A DNA stretch of 64,000 bases, from assembly GCF_001761465.1 (NCBI RefSeq), contig NZ_CP017479.1:2852001-2916000 (forward strand), written 5' to 3'. The notes under the pieces were generated by a model, which was given only the letters and a program-made list of their open reading frames with translations, had not been told where the DNA came from and did no database searches. Positions 40,675-50,118 of this stretch are shown here, piece after piece (within the stretch, counting starts at the first letter, position 1; every line of letters starts with the position of its first letter). Made by a program: the position numbers and the translations under genes. Source of the DNA: Flavobacterium gilvum (GTDB lineage: Bacteria; Bacteroidota; Bacteroidia; Flavobacteriales; Flavobacteriaceae).

Positions 40675-42453
40675 TTATTTTTTCTCTGATTTTTCCATTT
40701 TAGCTTTCAATGCAGCTAATACATCATTGTTATCTCCAAGAGTTGCAGCTGGTGCATTTGTTGTAGAGTTAGATGAAGTATTTTCAGTTGCAGCTTTCAC
40801 ATTTTTCTCTTCTTCTTCACGGAAGATAGCAGTGTGAGAAGCAACTACTCTTTTGAATTCTTTATTGAACTCGATTACTTTGAAATCAGCAGTATCACCT
40901 TTTTTCAATTTTTTTCCGTCTTCTTTTTCAAGGTGACGAGTTGGAATGAAAGCAACGATATCATCTCCGAATTCTACAGTAGCTCCTTTGTCAACGATTT
41001 CAGAAATTTCACCATTGTGGATAGTTCCTACAGCAAAAGAATCTTCGTATTGATCCCAAGGATTAGCAGTAGTTTGTTTGTGACCTAAAGATAATTTACG
41101 TCCATCAACATCTAATTCTAATACAACTACATCAAGTTTTTCACCAACATTTACAAATTCAGATGGGTGTTTGATTTTCTTAGTCCAAGAAAGGTCAGAG
41201 ATGTAAATTAATCCATCGATTCCTTCTTCTAATTCTACGAAAATTCCAAAGTTTGTAAAGTTTCTAACGATACCTGTATGTTTAGAACCTACTGGGTATT
41301 TAGAAGTGATATCAGTCCAAGGATCTTGAGTCAATTGTTTGATACCCAAAGACATCTTACGATCATCTCTGTCAAGAGTCAATACAACAGCTTCAACAAC
41401 ATCCCCTACTTTTACGAAATCTTGAGCAGAACGTAAGTGTGTAGACCAAGACATTTCAGAAACGTGGATTAAACCTTCAACACCTTCAGCAACTTCGATA
41501 AATGCACCGTAATCAGCGATTACAACTACTTTACCAGAAACTTTGTCACCAATTTTCAAATCAGCGTTCAAAGCATCCCAAGGGTGAGCGTTCAATTGTT
41601 TCAATCCTAATTGAATTCTTGTTTTCTCATCATCGAAATCAAGGATTACAACGTTCAATTTTTGGTCTAATTCAAGAACTTCACTTGGGTGGTTGATTCT
41701 TGACCAAGAAAGGTCAGTAATGTGGATTAATCCATCAACACCACCTAAGTCAATAAACACACCGTATGAAGTGATGTTTTTAACAACACCTTCCAATACT
41801 TGTCCTTTTTGTAATTGACCGATAATTTCTTTTTTCTGTACTTCGATATCAGCTTCAATAAGCGCTTTATGAGATACAACAACGTTTTTGAATTCGTGGT
41901 TGATTTTTACCACTTTGAATTCCATCATTTTGTTTACATATACATCGTAATCTCTAATTGGCTTAACATCAATTTGAGATCCTGGTAAGAATGCTTCAAT
42001 TCCGAAAACATCAACGATCATACCACCTTTAGTTCTGCATTTTACAAAACCATTAACGATTTCACCTGTTTCGTTTGCAGCAATAACTCTATCCCATGAT
42101 TTGATAGTACGTGCTTTTCTGTGTGATAATACTAGTTGACCAGTTTTGTCCTCACGGATGTCAATTAATACCTCTACTTTGTCACCTACTTTTAAATTTG
42201 GATTGTAACGGAATTCATTTAATGAAATAACACCTTCCGATTTTGCGTTGATATCAACGATAACGTCTCTATCTGTAATTCTCACAACTACTCCTTCTAC
42301 TACTTCTTCTTGGTCAGTAGCGATAAAAGTTTTTGATACTAGTTCTTCGAATTCCAACAAGTTTTTCTCATCCACAGCATCGATACCTTCTTCGAAGTTA
42401 TGCCAGTTGAAATTTGCTAAAAACTCTTCTTGTGATTTTAATTGTTCAGACAT
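40675..42453 (-). CDS. rpsA: 30S ribosomal protein S1
   Basis: 592 residues. It contains consecutive S1 RNA-binding domains, for example VVEGVVVRITDRDVIVDINAK (shown in part as GVVVRITDRDVIVDI), GVVKNITSYGVFIDLGGVDG, GKVVVIADYGAFIEVAEGVEG and GIVRNFTNFGIFVELEEGIDG, with conserved LSWSRINHPSEV-type linkers. The N-terminal 60 residues are an acidic extension and the C-terminal 45 residues are low in complexity. It delivers mRNA to the 30S subunit, which matters in this phylum where Shine-Dalgarno use is weak. A consensus promoter lies about 120 nt upstream. Confidence 0.97.
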   Translation of the reverse strand: MSEQLKSQEEFLANFNWHNFEEGIDAVDEKNLLEFEELVSKTFIATDQEEVVEGVVVRITDRDVIVDINAKSEGVISLNEFRYNPNLKVGDKVEVLIDIREDKTGQLVLSHRKARTIKSWDRVIAANETGEIVNGFVKCRTKGGMIVDVFGIEAFLPGSQIDVKPIRDYDVYVNKMMEFKVVKINHEFKNVVVSHKALIEADIEVQKKEIIGQLQKGQVLEGVVKNITSYGVFIDLGGVDGLIHITDLSWSRINHPSEVLELDQKLNVVILDFDDEKTRIQLGLKQLNAHPWDALNADLKIGDKVSGKVVVIADYGAFIEVAEGVEGLIHVSEMSWSTHLRSAQDFVKVGDVVEAVVLTLDRDDRKMSLGIKQLTQDPWTDITSKYPVGSKHTGIVRNFTNFGIFVELEEGIDGLIYISDLSWTKKIKHPSEFVNVGEKLDVVVLELDVDGRKLSLGHKQTTANPWDQYEDSFAVGTIHNGEISEIVDKGATVEFGDDIVAFIPTRHLEKEDGKKLKKGDTADFKVIEFNKEFKRVVASHTAIFREEEEKNVKAATENTSSNSTTNAPAATLGDNNDVLAALKAKMEKSEKK

Positions 42454-42574: not shown

Positions 42575-42605
42575 CAAAATTAATTCATTTTTCTGAAACT
42601 GCAAA
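42575..42605 (-). promoter_or_regulatory. Bacteroidota-type promoter of rpsA
   Basis: Read on the minus strand: TTTG (42605-42602), a 19-nt spacer, then TAATTTTG (42582-42575). This is an exact consensus. The predicted leader is about 115 nt, long enough to hold autoregulatory structure for S1. Confidence 0.82.
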
Positions 42606-42670
42606 ACAAAATGCGAGTGATTATCAATCTATTATTGAAGGAGCACAGGATTTCGTTTTTTTCAGGAAGT

Positions 42671-42743
42671 GTAGTCCCGCTTTTCACTACAATCTTATAA
42701 GCCGAACCCCGGCTTATAAGGATTTTCGCTTCAATCGGGGTTA
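42671..42743 (-). ncRNA. Candidate structured RNA, copy A (flavo-1-like)
   Basis: On the minus strand the order is CCCCGATTGAAGCGAAAATC, then a hairpin with an 11-bp perfect stem (CTTATAAGCCG, 42710-42720 with 42694-42704, loop 5 nt), then AGATTGTAGTGAAAAGC and GGGAC. The flanking CCCG (42739-42736) and CGGG (42679-42676) pair and close the structure. A second copy with a different but still paired closing stem lies at 49365-49455. The motif reminds me of the flavo-1 RNA family of Flavobacteriia, from memory and unconfirmed. It lies upstream of the rpsA promoter. The neighbouring 42745-42900 also carries a decayed GTCATTGCGAGG repeat. Confidence 0.5.
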
Positions 42744-42913
42744 GGTTAGAAGTCTAGTATTTCATAAGAAGTAACAAACCCATAGTTTTTCCTCGCAATG
42801 ACAAACTTTGCAAATAGCTTTTGGTTACAAGTTTATACATACTTGACGAAAATCTTAAATCCAAACTTATAAGATTAATGACAATAATATTGTTTTGATT
42901 TAGTTAAAAAACA

Positions 42914-42949
42914 ACAAACCCGACAAATTCAATTTTCTGTCGGGTTTGT
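42914..42949 (-). terminator. Terminator of the nucleoside permease gene
   Basis: A 12-bp perfect stem (ACAAACCCGACA with its complement, 42914-42925 and 42938-42949) with a 12-nt loop and a T-rich tail on the minus strand lies six bases beyond the stop codon. Confidence 0.87.
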
Positions 42950-42954
42950 TTATA

Positions 42955-44331
42955 TTAATGACTTAAGTTTTCCAAAGGAATCGGTTTATGCTCGTGTTTG
43001 AACAAAACAGCAAATGCTATCGCAATGATTAGCGAATAAGCTGCAAAAGCCAGCCAAATCATATGCCAGTCTTTCATCATAATAACATTTTGAAATAATC
43101 CATCTGCAGAAACAGCGTTTCCTTGACTTTTTACAAACTCAAGCATTTTTGGATTTGCGCTATCTGTATGTAAAAAAGAAGCTAACTCTGAAGTTGTGTT
43201 AAAAGATTTTGTAAAAAAGCGATCAATTGCCCAGCCAGAGGTAAAGCTTCCCAAAATTGCCCCAACTCCATTGGTCATCATCATAAATAAACCTTGTGCT
43301 GAAGAACGATTTTTGGCATCGGTATGAGTTTCCACAAACAATGACCCGGATATATTAAAGAAATCAAATGCCATTCCATAAACGATACAGGACAATATAA
43401 TCATCCACAATCCTTGAACAGGATCTCCAAACGCAAATAGGCCAAAACGCAATACCCATGCTAGCATACTGATAAGCATTACTTGTTTAATTCCAAAACG
43501 TTTCAAGAAAAATGGAATAGCAAGAATGAATAAAGTCTCAGAAATTTGGGAAATAGACATAATAATAGTTGAATATTTCACCACAAATGAATCGGCGTAT
43601 ATTGGGAAATGTTTGAATTCATCTAAAAAGACATCGCCATAAGCGTTAGTCAATTGTAAAGCTCCTCCCAAAAACATCGAAAAAATAAAAAACAAAGCCA
43701 TTTTGTAATCGGCAAATAACTTGAAAGAACCCAATCCCAATGTTTCCATCAGTGAGGCATCCTCTTTTAGTAATCGTTGCGGTTTGCATTTTGGCAAAGT
43801 AAATGAATACAATCCTAATGCAACGGCGGCGATTCCAGCAATATAAAATTGATAGGCAGTTGCTTTATTTCCGGTCAGATTGGTAATCCACATCGCGACA
43901 ATAAAACCGATAGTTCCAAAAACACGAATAGGCGGAAAATCCTTAACGACATCTTTGTTGTTTGTTTTCAGTGCATTATAAGATATGGAATTACTCAAAG
44001 CAATAGTTGGCATGTAACAACACATCGCCAAAAGCATAATATATATAAAGGTGTCTGGTGTAGTAACTTTTGGAATATAAAATAAAACTGCTCCATAGGA
44101 AATATGAAGTATCCCATATAATTTTTCGGCATTAATCCACCTGTCAGCAATAATACCGGATATAGTTGGCATAAAAAGAGAAGCGATTCCCATTGTTCCA
44201 AAGACCAAACCAAATTGAGTACCTTCCCAGTTTTTGGTTCCAAACCAATAATTTGCAATTGTAATTAACCAAGCTCCCCAAACAAAAAATTGGAGAAAAC
44301 TCATTAATATCAACCTGTTTTTAATTCCCAT
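42955..44331 (-). CDS. Nucleoside permease, MFS nucleoside:H+ symporter family
   Basis: 458 residues with 12 membrane helices. The first helix region MSFLQFFVWGAWLITIANYWF and FGTMGIASLFMPTISGIIADRW are typical of the NupG/XapB family, and QGLFMMMTNGVGAILGSFTSGW lies in the second half. It imports nucleosides with protons at the inner membrane. The protein is about 40 residues longer than E. coli NupG, with the extra residues in the loop near 375-405 (SFNTTSELASFLHTDSANP). The next gene transcribed upstream is cmk, a pyrimidine nucleotide enzyme, 75 bp away. Confidence 0.85.
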   Translation of the reverse strand: MGIKNRLILMSFLQFFVWGAWLITIANYWFGTKNWEGTQFGLVFGTMGIASLFMPTISGIIADRWINAEKLYGILHISYGAVLFYIPKVTTPDTFIYIMLLAMCCYMPTIALSNSISYNALKTNNKDVVKDFPPIRVFGTIGFIVAMWITNLTGNKATAYQFYIAGIAAVALGLYSFTLPKCKPQRLLKEDASLMETLGLGSFKLFADYKMALFFIFSMFLGGALQLTNAYGDVFLDEFKHFPIYADSFVVKYSTIIMSISQISETLFILAIPFFLKRFGIKQVMLISMLAWVLRFGLFAFGDPVQGLWMIILSCIVYGMAFDFFNISGSLFVETHTDAKNRSSAQGLFMMMTNGVGAILGSFTSGWAIDRFFTKSFNTTSELASFLHTDSANPKMLEFVKSQGNAVSADGLFQNVIMMKDWHMIWLAFAAYSLIIAIAFAVLFKHEHKPIPLENLSH

Positions 44332-44406
44332 AAGACGATCTGTATTTTTTATTTGTAGAATTTTGTGGCGCGTAAATCTACCATTAAAATTGATATTTCC
44401 AAAAAA

Positions 44407-45099
44407 TTATACAGCATTAATAACATCGTTTACCAACTCTAAAACGGCGTCAAATTGTTCTTTACGATCCAGATAAGAATTATCCACTTCAATTGCGTCG
44501 TCAGCCATTACAAGAGGAGAGTCAACTCTATGAGTATCAATATAGTCACGTTCAACCACATTCTTTAATACTTCTTCGTAGGAAACAGAATCACCTTTTG
44601 CCTTTAATTCATCGTAACGTCTTTGCGCACGGGTATCTGCCCCTGCGGTCATGAATATTTTGAGTTCGGCATTTGGAAAAACGACGGTTCCTATATCTCG
44701 GCCATCCATAACAATTCCTTTTTCCTTACCCATTTCCTGTTGTTGTTCTACTAATTTGGTGCGAACTTCAGAAATTGCGGCTACAGAACTTACAAAGTTG
44801 GAAACTTCCAAAGTACGAATTTCAGTTTCAACATTGATATCGTTCAGGTACATTTCGGCAAAACCCAATTCGGAATTGAATTTGAAATGTAATTTTATCG
44901 AAGGCAAGCTGCTTATTAATTTTTCTTTATCAAAAAAATCAGTTCCAATGTAATTGTTCTGCATTGCATACAATGCCACAGCTCGGTACATCGCACCAGT
45001 ATCTACATATACATATCCCAAATGTTTGGCAAGTTGCTTCGCCAAAGTACTTTTCCCAGTGGATGAAAATCCGTCTATTGCTATGGTTATTTTTTTCAT
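44407..45099 (-). CDS. cmk: Cytidylate kinase
   Basis: 230 residues. The P-loop GFSSTGKSTLAKQL lies at residues 10-23, YVDTGAMYRAVALYA follows at about 30-45 and IVMDGRDIGTVVFPNA is near 129. The lid segment with TRAQRRYDELKAKGD is near 152. It phosphorylates CMP and dCMP with ATP. It keeps the NMP-bind insertion of bacterial CMP kinases. In many bacteria cmk is next to rpsA; here the permease gene lies between them. Confidence 0.95.
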   Translation of the reverse strand: MKKITIAIDGFSSTGKSTLAKQLAKHLGYVYVDTGAMYRAVALYAMQNNYIGTDFFDKEKLISSLPSIKLHFKFNSELGFAEMYLNDINVETEIRTLEVSNFVSSVAAISEVRTKLVEQQQEMGKEKGIVMDGRDIGTVVFPNAELKIFMTAGADTRAQRRYDELKAKGDSVSYEEVLKNVVERDYIDTHRVDSPLVMADDAIEVDNSYLDRKEQFDAVLELVNDVINAV

Positions 45100-45165
45100 T
45101 ATTTATTTTTAAGTATTTTTTAGTTCTTTACTCTTTATTCTTTACTCTTTCTTCTGTCATCAAAA

Positions 45166-46188
45166 TCATTCCCCAAAATTAACAATCAATCCAAATAAAC
45201 TGGTATTTCCTGCCAAAGTATATTTCGAATAAGAGTAATTAAATTTTAATTTATTCAGTTTGAGACCAAAACCAACGGCAAGTCCCGAGAAATTGCGTTG
45301 TTCTTCTATTCGTAGTTCTTCAGCTCTCCTAAAATTATACCCCAATCTAAGATTAAAAGCTTTTTTTGGAAAAAATTCAGCTCCAAAAATCATATGTCGC
45401 AAAGCATTATTGAAAAATGAGATTTTTTCTTCTTCAACAGTACCATCAATTGAAGTTTGTGAGCGAACAGGATTTGAAAAAGCCAGATTCCATTGTTGCA
45501 AGTTTTCGAGGGTAAAATGCCAGCGTATCGGAACGTGTTCCAATTCCTGTGAAACTCCGGCGATTATTTCAAATGGCAAACTTTCCCTATTGCCGTCATA
45601 AGTAGTAAATTGGGTTCCGATATTCTTCAAAGTCAGCGCCCAGTTTACATCATTTTTTTCATCGATATAAACCATTCCTAAATCTATGGCTGCACCAAAA
45701 GAATTATAAGTTTCCAGGGTAGATTCGATTAATTTGGCGTTGGCGCCCAAGTGAATGTCGGTATAAGGAATATTGTAAGCATAACCCAAAGAAAGCGCTA
45801 TTTCGCTACCGGTAAATGATGAAGTTGGCAAACCATTTTCATCATAACCATCAAATTTTCCGTAATTAATATAATTTATTCCGGCCTGAAAGGTTTGTAT
45901 GTGTTGGTCGTAAGTATAAGCGTATGATGCAGTACCATAAGTTACTTCCTGGTAATAATTGCCATAATTTAAGGATAAGTGGTTGTCCATTTCCTGATTG
46001 ATGGCTGCGGGATTGAAAAGTGCCTGATTCACATCTTCATCATAAATAGTAATAACCTTCCCGCCCAAAGCCGCCTGTCTTGGCGAAGTAACAAGATTTA
46101 AAAACTCATAAGTATGCTTCCCTCCTATTTGTCCGTATGTCGCAAAACAAATTAAGGATAAAAAGTAAAATGAAAGTTTTTGGGACAT
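45166..46188 (-). CDS. porQ: Type IX secretion system protein PorQ
   Basis: 340 residues. The signal peptide ends near ATYGQ (residue 19), followed by GGKHTYEFLNLVTSPRQAALGG, the PorQ/PorV-type start. The sequence then alternates as outer membrane beta strands and ends in SLFGLIVNFGE. PorQ is an outer membrane component that works with PorZ, PorU and PorV at the type IX attachment complex, which releases and anchors cargo carrying C-terminal domains. The large protein at 36999-40481 is such a cargo. A TATGTTTG box (46239-46246, minus strand) lies about 50 nt upstream. Confidence 0.9.
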   Translation of the reverse strand: MSQKLSFYFLSLICFATYGQIGGKHTYEFLNLVTSPRQAALGGKVITIYDEDVNQALFNPAAINQEMDNHLSLNYGNYYQEVTYGTASYAYTYDQHIQTFQAGINYINYGKFDGYDENGLPTSSFTGSEIALSLGYAYNIPYTDIHLGANAKLIESTLETYNSFGAAIDLGMVYIDEKNDVNWALTLKNIGTQFTTYDGNRESLPFEIIAGVSQELEHVPIRWHFTLENLQQWNLAFSNPVRSQTSIDGTVEEEKISFFNNALRHMIFGAEFFPKKAFNLRLGYNFRRAEELRIEEQRNFSGLAVGFGLKLNKLKFNYSYSKYTLAGNTSLFGLIVNFGE

Positions 46189-46276
46189 ACGATATTTGAA
46201 AAGGGAATGTCAAAAATTCACCCCGAAGTTATCGGCATCAAACATACAAAAATTAAAGAGAAAAGCCTTAAAAAAC

Positions 46277-46327
46277 AAAGTCCAAATTCCGTCTTCCTGT
46301 TTACTTCAGGAGTGGATTTTGGACTTT
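46277..46327 (-). terminator. Terminator of lon
   Basis: A 14-bp stem with one mismatch (AAAGTCCAAA..., 46277-46290 with 46314-46327) encloses an inner TCCTG/CAGGA pair. On the minus strand it is followed by TGTTTTTTAAG. Confidence 0.82.
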
Positions 46328-46357
46328 TATTAGGAATGAAATATTCGGTAACCGATT

Positions 46358-48811
46358 TTATTTCAAGTCTTTTGCGTTTTTCACCTTGTCTTTTGTTATA
46401 GCCAAATTCAAAACTTCGCTCATCTCTTTTACATAATGAAATGTAAGTCCTTCTAAGTACTCCGCTTTGATTTCGTCAATATCGCTTTTGTTTTCATGAC
46501 ACAGGATTATTTCTTTAATATTGGCTCTTTTGGCGGCCAATATTTTTTCTTTAATACCACCAACAGGCAATACTTTTCCTCTCAAGGTTATTTCTCCTGT
46601 CATGGCTAGATTTTTCTTCACTCGTTTTTGAGTAAGTAAAGAAACCAATGACGTCAGCATAGCAATACCGGCACTTGGGCCATCTTTTGGAGTTGCTCCT
46701 TCCGGAACATGCAAGTGAATATTGTATTTGGTAAGTATTTCAGGATTTAATCCCAATAATTCGGCGTTGGCTTTGATGTATTCCAAAGCAATTGTTGCCG
46801 ATTCTTTCATGACATTTCCTAAATTTCCGGTAATGGTCATTGAACCTTTTCCAGGAGAAAGTAATGATTCTATGAAAAGAATATCGCCACCAACACTTGT
46901 CCATGCCAAACCGGTAACAACACCGGCTACTTCATTATTCTCGTATTTATCTCTTTCCAATCTAGGAACTCCCAAGACTTTTATAATATCTTCGTCGGTA
47001 ATTTTTTTATTGTACTCCTCCTCCATCGCAACTGATTTGGCAGCATTACGAACGATTTGCGCAATTTTATTTTCCAATCCACGAACACCAGATTCACGTG
47101 TATAACCTTCGACAATTTTTTCTAATTGTTTTTTACCAATACTCAAATGTTTGGCGGTTAACCCGTGCGCTGTCAATTGCTTAGGGAATAAATGTTTTCT
47201 GGCTATTTCTATCTTTTCTTCAGTTGTATACCCCGACATTTTTATAACTTCCATTCTATCCACCAAAGCAGGCTGAATAGCGGCCATATTGTTTGAAGTA
47301 GCAATGAACATCACTTTGGACAAATCATAACCCATTTCTAGGAAATTATCATAAAAAGCGTTGTTTTGCTCTGGATCCAAAACTTCCAATAATGCCGAAG
47401 ACGGATCTCCGTTATGACTGGAGGATAATTTGTCAATTTCGTCCAAAACGAACACCGGGTTGGATGTTCCAGCTTTTTTCAAACTTTGGATAATTCGTCC
47501 AGGCATAGCACCGATATATGTTTTTCTGTGTCCACGAATTTCGGCTTCGTCACGCAATCCACCTAGAGAAATGCGAACATATTCTCTCCCCAATGCCTCG
47601 GCTACAGATCTACCAATAGATGTTTTACCAACTCCTGGAGGCCCTGCTAAACAGATAATTGGGGATTTCATATCATTTCTTAGTTTAAGCACGGCTAAAT
47701 GCTCAATCATTCTTTTCTTGACATCTTCTAAACCAAAATGATCTTTGTCTAATACTTTTTGAGCGTGTTTTAAATCGAAATTATCTTTTGAAAATTCGTT
47801 CCAAGGCAATTCCAAAAATAATTCCAGGTAATTTCTTTGAATACCAAAATCAGGAGCTTGCGGATTCATTCTACGCATTTTCGATAATTCCTTATCGAAA
47901 TGGTTTTGCGTTTTTTCATCCCATTTCTTTGTTTTGGCTTTCAGACTCATTTCGTCCATTTCTTCCTCCTGCGAAACGCCCCCCAATTCCTCTTGGATGG
48001 TTTTCATTTGCTGGTGCAAGAAATATTCTCTTTGCTGTTGGTCAAGGTCAAAACGAACTTTGGATTGAATATCATTTTTCAATTCCAGTTTTTGCAACTC
48101 GACATTCATATAGCGCAATGTTTCCAAAGCACGCTCTTTCAATCCGTTTATAGATAATAATTCTTGTTTTTCCTTAACCAACAAATTCATGTTAGAAGAA
48201 ACAAAATTGATTAAAAATGATGGACTGCCAATATTTTTTATTGCAAATGTGGCTTCTGTTGGAATATTTGGGCTTTCGCTGATTATTTTAACAGCCAATT
48301 CTTTTACAGATTCAATTATGGCATTGAATTCAGAATCTTTTTTAGTTGGTCTTTTTTCAGGAACTTCTTTTATAGTTGCCTTAAGATAAGGTTGTTCTGA
48401 TTTGATTTCGGATATTTCGAAACGTTTTTTTCCTTGCAGAATAACAGTTACGTTACCATCGGGCATTTTTAAAACGCGCAAAATACGGGCAACAGTACCA
48501 ATTTTGTTGATATCATCAATAGTTGGATCTTCGTCTTCCTCATTGAGTTGTGCCACAACACCAATGATTTTACCGCCTGCATTGGCATCATTGATTAATT
48601 TTATGGATTTATCTCTTCCTGCCGAAATAGGAATAACTACACCCGGAAATAAAACTGTATTGCGTAAAGGCAGAATTGGCAAAGAATCTGGTAGTTCTTC
48701 ATTATTCATTTCTTCCTCGTCTTCTGGAGTCAATAATGGAATTAATTCGGCTTCAGAATCAAATTCCTGAAGTGACAGATTGTCAATAGTTAGTGTTTTA
48801 TGGTTTGACAT
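46358..48811 (-). CDS. lon: Endopeptidase La (Lon protease)
   Basis: 817 residues. An N-terminal substrate-binding LON domain (about 45-240, beginning [19 protein letters not shown]) is followed by a helical linker. The AAA module has Walker [16 protein letters not shown] near 391 and Walker [13 protein letters not shown] near 455. The protease domain carries the catalytic Ser in [11 protein letters not shown] near 713 and the Lys in [13 protein letters not shown] near 756. It degrades misfolded and regulatory proteins with ATP in the cytoplasm. A TATATTTG box (48857-48864, minus strand) sits about 46 nt upstream. I see no heat-shock operator such as a CIRCE inverted repeat. Confidence 0.97.
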
Positions 48812-48856
48812 AACGTTATTTAAGTCTTTTTGTCATTAATGTTACAAATCGGAGCG

Positions 48857-48864
48857 CAAATATA
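48857..48864 (-). promoter_or_regulatory. Candidate -7 box of lon
   Basis: The minus strand reads TATATTTG, matching TAnnTTTG, with a start codon about 46 nt downstream. No TTG lies at the expected -33 distance. Confidence 0.4.
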
Positions 48865-49060
48865 AGGTATCACAACAATATTTTACCCTAATATGCGTGC
48901 ATAAATATTGAACTTTAAAATAAGGCAATCATTGTGCCAAAGAAAATTTTATATAATAATTTTTCTTAATAAATAATTATTGCTCTTTTTAGAATATTTA
49001 GTGTTATTACGTTCAGTTTTGTCATCCGAAGGAATCTCACGCTTGGTTAATTCCAAAGCT

Positions 49061-49156
49061 AGCGCGAGCGTCCCGCTCGTACCTGCATATAAAGGTTGGA
49101 AAAAAGTGTTTAATGGTTGTATAAATTGGAATGGGCGCGAGCGGGACGCTCGCGCT
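49061..49156. repeat. GC-rich 19-bp inverted repeat in an AT-rich gap
   Basis: Arms at 49061-49079 and 49138-49156 (AGCGCGAGCGTCCCGCTCG) are exact reverse complements, and each arm also contains the smaller palindrome GAGCG-TCC-CGCTC. The composition stands out from the surroundings. I see no open frame of a transposase. Confidence 0.85.
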
Positions 49157-49231
49157 ATCGAAAGAAATTATGAAAACGAAATTATTTTATTTAATAAAAA
49201 TGATGTTGAGTCGCAGAATGCCGCGTGAAGG

Positions 49232-49364
49232 CAATGTCATTAAGTTAAGCGTTTTTTATGTCATTTCGACGAAGGAGAAATCACATAACGTGAGTCACTA
49301 GTGAGATTCCTCGTACCGCGGAATGACAAAACGATGGTTTTATATCCTTAACTTAATGACATTT
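49232..49364. mobile_element. MITE-like palindromic element, 133 bp
   Basis: Terminal inverted repeats of 17 bp (AATGTCATTAAGTTAAG at 49233-49249 and its complement at 49347-49363) enclose an imperfect palindrome with GTCATTTCGACGAAGGAG on one side and CGCGGAATGAC on the other. Just outside are CGCGTGAAGG (49222-49231) and CGCGTGAGGG (49365-49374), a 10-bp direct repeat with one difference, as expected for a target duplication. It has no coding capacity. Confidence 0.6.
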
Positions 49365-49455
49365 CGCGTGAGGGATAGAAGTGGAGCTCTTTTTCCTTGA
49401 TTTTTTTATCAAGAAAAAAAGCGGGAACGGATAGCCCGACCCTTGGGGCACGCCC
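49365..49455 (+). ncRNA. Candidate structured RNA, copy B (flavo-1-like)
   Basis: The sequence runs GAGGGATAGAAGTGGAG, then a long hairpin (CTTTTTCCTTGAT with ATCAAGAAAAAAAG), then CGGGAACGGATAGCCCGACC and CTTGGGGCACGCCC. GGG (49372-49374) pairs with CCC (49434-49436), in the place where copy A has CCC with GGG. An outer GCGTG/CACGC pair (49366-49370 and 49449-49453) and a GCCC...GGGC hairpin add structure. It lies about 110 bp upstream of the sigma factor gene, on the same strand. The other parts of the 752-bp gap are the two repeats listed before it. I see no gene. Confidence 0.5.
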
Positions 49456-49563
49456 AAATAAAAAATTTAATGGAAACAAATTTCTGTTTAAAATAAATTA
49501 TTTTTATCAAAGTGTAACAAACCAAAAAATCTTCTGTCTTTGGTATAAATCATAATTATTTAA

Positions 49564-50118
49564 TTGAGTCTGAACAGTCAAAATATCGAGGAATTAGTTT
49601 CGTTATGCAAAGCGAACAATCAGAAAGCACAATTCGAGATTTATAATCGCTATTGCAAGGCGATGTATAATGTGGCCTATCGAATTGTGAAAGACGAGCA
49701 TTTTGCCGAAGATGTTATGCAGGAAGGTTTTTTGAAAGCCTTTACCAAAATACATGATTTTAAACAAGAAGTGGCTTTTGGCGCCTGGCTCAAACGGATA
49801 ATTGTGAATTACAGTATTGATTTTTACAAAAAGAATAATCCATTTAAAACAGAAGATTTTGAAAAAACACTTTACAAATTAGAAGAAACAGATACTGACT
49901 GGGAAGAAAAATTAAATTTTAATGATTTAAAAGTTAAACAAGTTCTGGATGCGATTCAGTCCTTAAAATACAATTACAGCATGGTTTTGACACTATTTTA
50001 TATAGAAGGTTATGACCAGGAAGAAATAAGTGAAATTCTTAAAATAAGCTACGCCAATTGCAGAACGACATTGAGCAGAGCCAAAGAAAGTTTAAGAAAA
50101 AAATTGAGTGAGTCATGA
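49564..50118 (+). CDS. ECF-type RNA polymerase sigma factor
   Basis: 184 residues. Sigma region 2 spans about 15-85 (FEIYNRYCKAMYNVAYRIV, EDVMQEGFLKAFTKI with the core-binding and -10 recognition helices). Region 4 spans about 120-178 (LFYIEGYDQEEISEILKISY, then CRTTLSRAKESLRKKL). There is no region 3, as in ECF sigma factors. The start codon is TTG; the next Met is too far inside region 2. The stop codon overlaps the ATG of the next gene (ATGA), which implies translational coupling with a probable anti-sigma partner. The regulon presumably includes this operon. Confidence 0.92.
   Translation: MSLNSQNIEELVSLCKANNQKAQFEIYNRYCKAMYNVAYRIVKDEHFAEDVMQEGFLKAFTKIHDFKQEVAFGAWLKRIIVNYSIDFYKKNNPFKTEDFEKTLYKLEETDTDWEEKLNFNDLKVKQVLDAIQSLKYNYSMVLTLFYIEGYDQEEISEILKISYANCRTTLSRAKESLRKKLSES

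Follow-up and report, generated by a model that had tools for sequence, protein, structure and literature searches.

The question raised by this locus is what two short structured elements do 5′ of rpsA and of a sigma factor gene, respectively, in a window of 64,000 nt from Flavobacterium gilvum (assembly GCF_001761465.1, contig NZ_CP017479.1, 2,852,001-2,916,000; positions below are window coordinates). An earlier note had proposed, from the letters alone, that the elements, copies A and B, belong to one structured RNA family, and had pointed to a resemblance to the flavo-1 motif, for which a cmscan comparison with Rfam was suggested. This comparison confirmed the resemblance: the only two Rfam matches in the window at gathering scores were both to Flavo-1 (RF01705), with 69.8 bits for copy A and 52.9 bits for copy B against a gathering score of 42 bits. 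The family is already known, and both copies are members of it. The shared order GAT(T/A)GAAG(C/T)G ... AGC(G/C)(G/C)GA and the swap of the closing stem, CCC/GGG in copy A and GGG/CCC in copy B, can be read directly in the sequence, and the apical hairpins, unrelated in sequence, are both paired in the cmscan alignments, as had been described, at the coordinates given there. The joint absence of an Rfam match and of covariation had been named as grounds for dropping the proposal; both were found. Flavo-1 is a structured repeat that lies dispersed between genes on Flavobacteriaceae chromosomes; as to its role, we lean, with reservations, towards a structured element that acts at the DNA level between transcription units.

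The fold is real, and one strand is constrained to fold. In single-sequence folding, copy A alone folded strongly (z -3.6 as RNA and -4.1 as DNA; -2.7 and -3.7 for its complement), and a longer stretch with copy B was not outstanding (z -1.0 as RNA, -1.6 as DNA). In an alignment of 45 hand-chosen copies from the F. gilvum genome (A1), RNAalifold predicted 17 pairs, 13 of them with double changes; one pair occurred as AU in 23 copies, GC in 13, UA in eight and CG in one, with none of the 45 broken, and another as CG in 29, UA in six, GC in four and AU in three, with three broken. The true covariation that had been read from copies A and B is present across these paralogues and, moreover, at orthologous sites. 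Among 27 copies shared with relatives, 26 were taken for this comparison, one type 3 copy (described below) being omitted, and 25 were comparable, 24 with genome G274 and one with G182, both from close species; four outer base pairs were scored in each, which gave 100 cells. Both sides had changed in 27 cells, with Watson-Crick pairing before and after; 60 were paired and unchanged, five held single changes within standard pairs, five were single breaks and three were of other kinds. These cells are not independent, since eight of the 27 double changes came from two pairs of copies (L012-L240 and L118-L246) in which all four base pairs had changed; single compensations alone were also seen among the four scored pairs, as in L110-L183 and L131-L213.

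In three further alignments (A2, A3 and A4, with 36, 92 and 98 rows after removal of duplicates), fitted to the structure of model R1, the search E-values of which are rough, G-T outnumbered A-C, with 48 against 15 in the eight outer pairs, 93 against 33 in all 17. Had the two strands been of like importance, the counts should have been equal; it is thus the annotated strand that folds. A one-strand fold suggests a single strand, either RNA or DNA. The excess of G-U over A-C and the covariation at both levels would suit a functional RNA, either a small RNA or a processed transcript, made from weak, alternative-sigma or pervasive promoters, an explanation that we consider somewhat improbable but serious. 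Against it stands the share of G-T itself, about 2.5% of the cells in A2-A4, which we would call low for RNA. The type label of RF01705 in Rfam is 'Gene; sRNA', and a review lists Flavo-1, in text and table, with the bacterial small-RNA families of highest abundance, where its function field is empty (PMC9029176). In the transcript data described for F. psychrophilum, several 5′ transcribed regions coincide with Flavo-1, which suits a functional RNA, but many Flavo-1 matches fall outside transcribed regions (PMC9723704).

The F. gilvum genome holds at least 95 Flavo-1 matches, of which 87 lie above the cut-off; the total is a minimum, since scoring covered 150 of 1383 first-look candidates, and the best 90 of the 95 were analysed, with the weakest five (<40 bits) left out. 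The two close species had 128 (G182) and 86 (G274) matches. Across the 40 genomes searched, where counts are likewise lower bounds, Flavo-1 was found in 26 genomes, F. gilvum included, and in four of 16 genera; none of the 14 control genomes gave a match. Within the genus the number per genome ranged from zero (G018 and G020) to at least 88. The orientation of Flavo-1 towards genes is random: relative to flanking open reading frames (ORFs), the calling of which does not see rRNA genes, the 90 copies were tandem-sense in 27 cases, tandem-antisense in 28, divergent in 20 and convergent in 14, one being open, and ten of them overlapped a called ORF of 80 aa or more. No bias of strand or position on the chromosome halves was found among the 90 copies (Fisher p 0.67). 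An intrinsic terminator was rejected as an identity for the element, as 28 of the 90 copies are antisense to both neighbours, and what follows the core is, by eye, an arm or GCTCC and not a regular run of T.

Many copies in random orientation are also what would be expected of a quiescent selfish repeat, similar to a miniature inverted-repeat transposable element (MITE), an ERIC or a repetitive extragenic palindrome (REP), spread by an unknown enzyme, passively inherited and kept uniform by conversion. We regard this as unlikely. In its favour, the copies fall into types with their own flanking arms, other repeats have been inserted into Flavo-1, and the L012-L240 and L118-L246 comparisons changed in all four scored pairs, as whole replacement would give. 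The lone single compensations in L110-L183 and L131-L213 speak against it, as does the sharing of sites: the same flanks and orientation were found for 27 of the 90 F. gilvum copies among 55 of the 86 G274 matches and 15 of the 128 G182 matches that were fetched, and the rpsA and rrn sites are shared with other species as well. No carrier was found in limited searches: a type 1 copy had no counterpart in plasmid or phage records, nor did a single exact pattern have one in viral contigs. With regard to recent mobility, no clean empty site was seen where stretches of G413 and G414, 96.9% alike at rpsA, were compared; the alignments crossed 20 of the 36 G413 copy sites, element presence being unchecked individually, 14 copies lay outside the stretches used and two were partial.

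The site 5′ of rpsA bears most directly on what the element does. Around copy A, the following features were recognised:
42955-44331, minus strand: nucleoside:H+ symporter gene, 5′ of copy A (PF03825, E 2.6e-123)
42914-42949, no strand assigned: terminator-like palindrome in the gap between the symporter gene and copy A, ACAAACCCGACA...TGTCGGGTTTGT
42747-42768, minus strand: copy A 5′ arm, starting CTTATGAAATACTAGACTTC, outside the Rfam model; arms are alike in F. gilvum copies by eye
42669-42746, minus strand: copy A, Flavo-1 core (RF01705 model positions 1-76; cmscan 69.8 bits, E 2.9e-13)
42640-42668, minus strand: copy A 3′ arm with GCTCC at its end, an end common in types 1 and 2 by eye
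42575-42604, minus strand: rpsA promoter of sigma-A type, TTG-N19-TAATTTTG, 3′ of copy A (sequence pattern)
40675-42453, minus strand: rpsA, ribosomal protein S1 (six S1 stretches, PF00575, E 2e-78)

The symporter gene, copy A and rpsA thus follow one another on the minus strand, and copy A lies 5′ of the rpsA promoter (42604-42575), so that it is not part of a leader made from that promoter. The position upstream of rpsA, as the earlier note had it, stands; placement in the leader does not. Since copies A and B both lie 5′ of their gene in sense orientation, they might serve as cis-regulatory leaders in the transcripts of rpsA and the ECF sigma operon. This candidate is weakened by the place of copy A relative to the promoter and the random orientation genome-wide, to which the antisense rrn copies (see below) add; Weinberg et al., in their 2010 rating of the Flavo-1 motif, gave it 'n' (probably not) for cis-regulatory (PMC2864571). 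Leader RNA of either operon is unlikely, and as an account of the two copies it seems very improbable to us.

The rpsA position is remarkable because it is common across the genus. Among the 29 closest rpsA matches from a search of 398 genus genomes, 26 have Flavo-1 in the same orientation, 282 to 336 nt before the start codon, and a model search recovered the element in the same 27 of 30 loci, F. gilvum included, two of them weak; the rpsA copy is common to F. gilvum and G274. When named genomes, which included metagenome-assembled genomes and overlapped with the other genus genomes searched, were scanned for the rpsA leader motif, at least 120 loci were obtained, in records of Flavobacterium or Flavobacteriaceae type. 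The element lay 5′ of rpsA in 96 of the 120 listed (65 in the first 80 loci, 31 in the remaining 40), at E<=0.01 in 94 of the 96 and in identical orientation in all 96; a record of F. johnsoniae CI04 is among those with the element. The distance from element to leader motif was 86-90 nt in 79 of the 96 and up to 135 nt in the rest. Among these other distances, 98-100 and 109-111 nt exceed the main group by about one and two helical turns, 123-125 and 132-135 nt are off that spacing, and relatedness could explain the pattern. In 15 of the 120 loci a further copy lies about 2 kb on, past rpsA, in the opposite orientation. Element-free rpsA loci were also inspected by eye: there (e.g. in L253 and L342) the upstream coding sequence seems almost to reach the rpsA promoter region, so that the entire spacer would be missing.

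In 85 of the 120 loci, those with a simple core pattern, promoters and terminators were scored. The promoter pattern rests on the TAnnTTTG box, described as the sigma-A consensus of F. psychrophilum (PMC9723704). A sigma-A promoter was found 5′ of the element in two of the 85 loci, and the same pattern detected the rpsA promoter 3′ of the element in 85 of 85; the pattern is present in all 120 listed rpsA loci. This detection is in part built in, since the motif used for the scan itself opened with TTTTGCA. A terminator-like hairpin preceded the element in 37 of the 85 loci, and in three of 85 controls made by one single-base shuffle per locus. With a hairpin before it and a promoter after it, the element apparently stands between transcription units in many rpsA loci. 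Among 145 copies overall, a sigma-A-like promoter was found within 75 nt to the left in just three, with a strict pattern that found few promoters anywhere. At 81 rpsA loci the column majority was 0.82 at the start of the core, 0.63 at -30 to -1, 0.43 at -60 to -31 and 0.40 further out, so conservation ends about 30 nt 5′ of the core. For a functional RNA, a conserved sigma-A promoter on the folding strand would be expected, and its rarity next to the regular rpsA promoter, together with the early end of conservation, counts against that explanation; the strictness of the promoter pattern counts for it. The same loss of similarity further upstream sits poorly with a selfish repeat. An RNA role tied to rpsA or to the sigma operon, as the earlier note had it in mind, is unsupported by the orientation towards genes, by the rpsA promoter lying 3′ of copy A and of the element in all 85 scored loci, and by the three promoters among 145 copies.

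The second widely shared site is the rRNA operon. Flavo-1 lies 5′ of two of the five rRNA leaders listed for F. gilvum and of at least three in G274. A search of 101 genus genomes gave a match in 80, and one rRNA leader locus each was taken from 30 genomes, F. gilvum included; 22 of the 30 had Flavo-1 at E<=1e-3, and some of the eight loci without a match were truncated by contig ends. All 22 rrn copies are upstream of the rRNA and antisense to it. A fixed distance to the rrn promoter was not found, the box lying about 175 to 410 nt away, with no box in two of the 22. In F. gilvum, the near-identical rRNA repeat unit of L107 and L108 (99.9% over 2.1 kb) stops 19 nt past the Flavo-1 match, so that in this genome the homogenised rRNA unit has Flavo-1 at its outer edge. 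Since the rpsA and rrn sites are both widely common in the genus, they are probably ancestral. No published link of Flavo-1 to rpsA or rrn was seen in literature searches on Flavo-1, on Flavobacterium repeats, on rRNA or rpsA promoters and on structured mobile elements.

Beyond the Rfam core, the F. gilvum copies sort by eye into types. Types 1 and 2 have an A-rich 5′ arm and mostly GCTCC at the end, and the type 1 arms resemble direct, not inverted, repeats, all by eye. The 14-base arm motif AATCTTTCTGCTCC, with at most one mismatch, had 35 matches relative to two for a reversed control, and 31 of these adjoin Flavo-1, the rrn duplicate L108 being omitted from the comparison of places. In type 3, which includes copy B, there is one more closing stem, GCGTN/NACGC, as well as a second hairpin, CCC..GGG; in ten of 12 copies both sides of the fifth pair were visible, as G-C in six, T-A in three and A-T in one. 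Read by eye, type 3 looks like a three-way-junction variant. The core consists of short stems and small internal loops with a fast-changing apical hairpin and conserved flanking arms. Of 26 orthologous copies taken for a comparison of inner and outer identity, 20 were usable: the inner block was 0.63 identical between orthologues and 0.60 between non-orthologues, the outer parts 0.80 and 0.70, and the apex class was the same in six of the 20 pairs as against 26%, the inner-loop type in seven of 20 as against 44%. Almost no orthology signal in the inner block next to a signal in the outer parts indicates that the tip is replaced wholesale and the base retained, and the near absence of signal in the inner hairpins also suits a selfish repeat. 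In addition, a repeat ACTTCACTT..GTTCAGTGAA.. was seen inserted within Flavo-1 in L149 and L150 of F. gilvum and in L075 (an rpsA locus), always after GATT, and a different repeat was inserted after GATTG in the rpsA locus L065.

A REP moved by a host Y1 transposase of the type known as RAYT was weighed separately, as Flavo-1 is a short intergenic hairpin repeat and the genome has three Y1_Tnp (RAYT-like) genes, L059, L060 and L061 (G000:C1:1022188, 4291691 and 2441286). Hairpin repeats of the GCTCCAT(G/A)GGAGCGAC type flank L059 and L061; their GCTCC is, by eye, also the 5-base end of many Flavo-1 copies, possibly by chance. However, no Flavo-1 match was found at E<=1 with the Rfam model in the three Y1 loci (10,032 bases), Y1 and Flavo-1 counts were uncorrelated in 25 genomes (Spearman 0.08, p 0.72, the Flavo-1 counts being lower bounds), and the genomes without Y1 had at least 88, 44, 12, 20 and 0 Flavo-1 copies. 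An origin of this kind was rejected and seems to us most improbable of all. In its passage giving REP counts for two Flavobacterium species, a published study does not name Flavo-1 (PMC12306157).

Copy B lies in a different setting, with these features:
49361-49445, plus strand: copy B, Flavo-1 core (cmscan 52.9 bits, E 1.3e-8)
49366-49370, plus strand: extra closing stem, 5′ side, GCGTG (by eye)
49440-49448, plus strand: second small hairpin, CCC..GGG, in what may be a three-way junction (by eye)
49449-49453, plus strand: extra closing stem, 3′ side, CACGC
49564-50118, plus strand: ECF-type sigma factor gene, 3′ of copy B, from the first in-frame start (TTG) (Sigma70_r2, E 9.3e-17; Sigma70_r4_2, E 6.2e-13)

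The neighbours were thus correctly named at the outset, rpsA by its S1 domains and the sigma factor by sigma-70 regions 2 and 4. No TAnnTTTG box against which copy B might be placed was found on the plus strand at 49150-49700, an interval that takes in copy B and reaches into the sigma ORF, and an RNA tied to the sigma operon is not supported there. Copy B sits inside a cluster of other repeats (49062-49155 and 49233-49363), with a pair of GCGAGCGGGACGCTCGC-type palindromes in opposite orientations and with TTAACTTAATGACATT inverted on either side of a 'GAGATTCCTCGTACC..GGAATGACAAAA' stretch.

Taken together, we infer, tentatively, that Flavo-1 would work as DNA, either in the form of a folded single strand or by docking a protein between transcription units, for example as a topological or transcriptional insulator before heavily used promoters, and that its inner hairpin would be renewed by copying between or within copies. 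Several points weigh against this. The excess of G-T over A-C is expected of RNA as well, and it disfavours a symmetric cruciform; no single-stranded DNA source and no partner protein was identified. The coincidence of several F. psychrophilum 5′ transcribed regions with Flavo-1, mentioned above, points the same way, and the search for own promoters covered the sigma-A pattern only, which is strict and of limited sensitivity; a lone -7-like TAAGTTTG lies 5′ of copy A at 42869-42862, without a TTG partner. Moreover, 24 of the 120 listed rpsA loci are without the element, 48 of the 85 scored lack a terminator-like hairpin, and the two same-genus genomes without a match (G018 and G020) indicate that Flavo-1 is dispensable. 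Finally, at fixed offsets in the 81 rpsA loci, the GATn/nAGC outer pair was standard in 48 (A-T in 42) and nonstandard in 33, of which 27 were A-A. These belong at least partly to a shortened-core subgroup in which the pairing register may be shifted. This subgroup was observed among the 81 loci as GATAGAGCGG...GCGAAAGCGGG, with one outer pair A-A, and its structure may differ. The A-A pair and the modest sensitivity of the pattern for promoters are the reasons why our confidence in a DNA-level element is slightly reduced.

A bolder form of this proposal, which we think rather unlikely, is that a family filed as RNA is really structured DNA, one strand of which folds at fixed intergenic posts (before the ribosomal operons rrn and rpsA and at dozens more) as an insulator or docking site, while its apex is continually renewed, with either other copies or the opposite arm as the source. 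If Flavo-1 acts as DNA, its small-RNA annotations would be misleading and it would be a new kind of chromosomal landmark. The rpsA site, often between a terminator-like hairpin and a promoter, makes the function testable.

Among known systems, the closest is RF01705 itself, as both copies exceed its curated score, with the same core and in the same taxon (PMC2864571). The RF01705 model covers the core only, and the GCTCC arms of types 1 and 2 and the extra stem and second hairpin of type 3 lie outside it. REP/BIME repeats are, like Flavo-1, short intergenic hairpins present many times per genome in either orientation; unlike them, Flavo-1 is longer, with internal loops and a variable apex, showed no Y1 association and shares sites across species. 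ERIC and BOX elements resemble it as structured, imperfect palindromes of about 100 nt without a known mobiliser, and Flavo-1 may differ from them in its four Watson-Crick types at single pairs and its widely shared rpsA site. A constant base with a variable tip is also the build of attC sites, and if the bolder proposal were true, Flavo-1 would represent a class of chromosomal element with an attC-like build but a housekeeping role.

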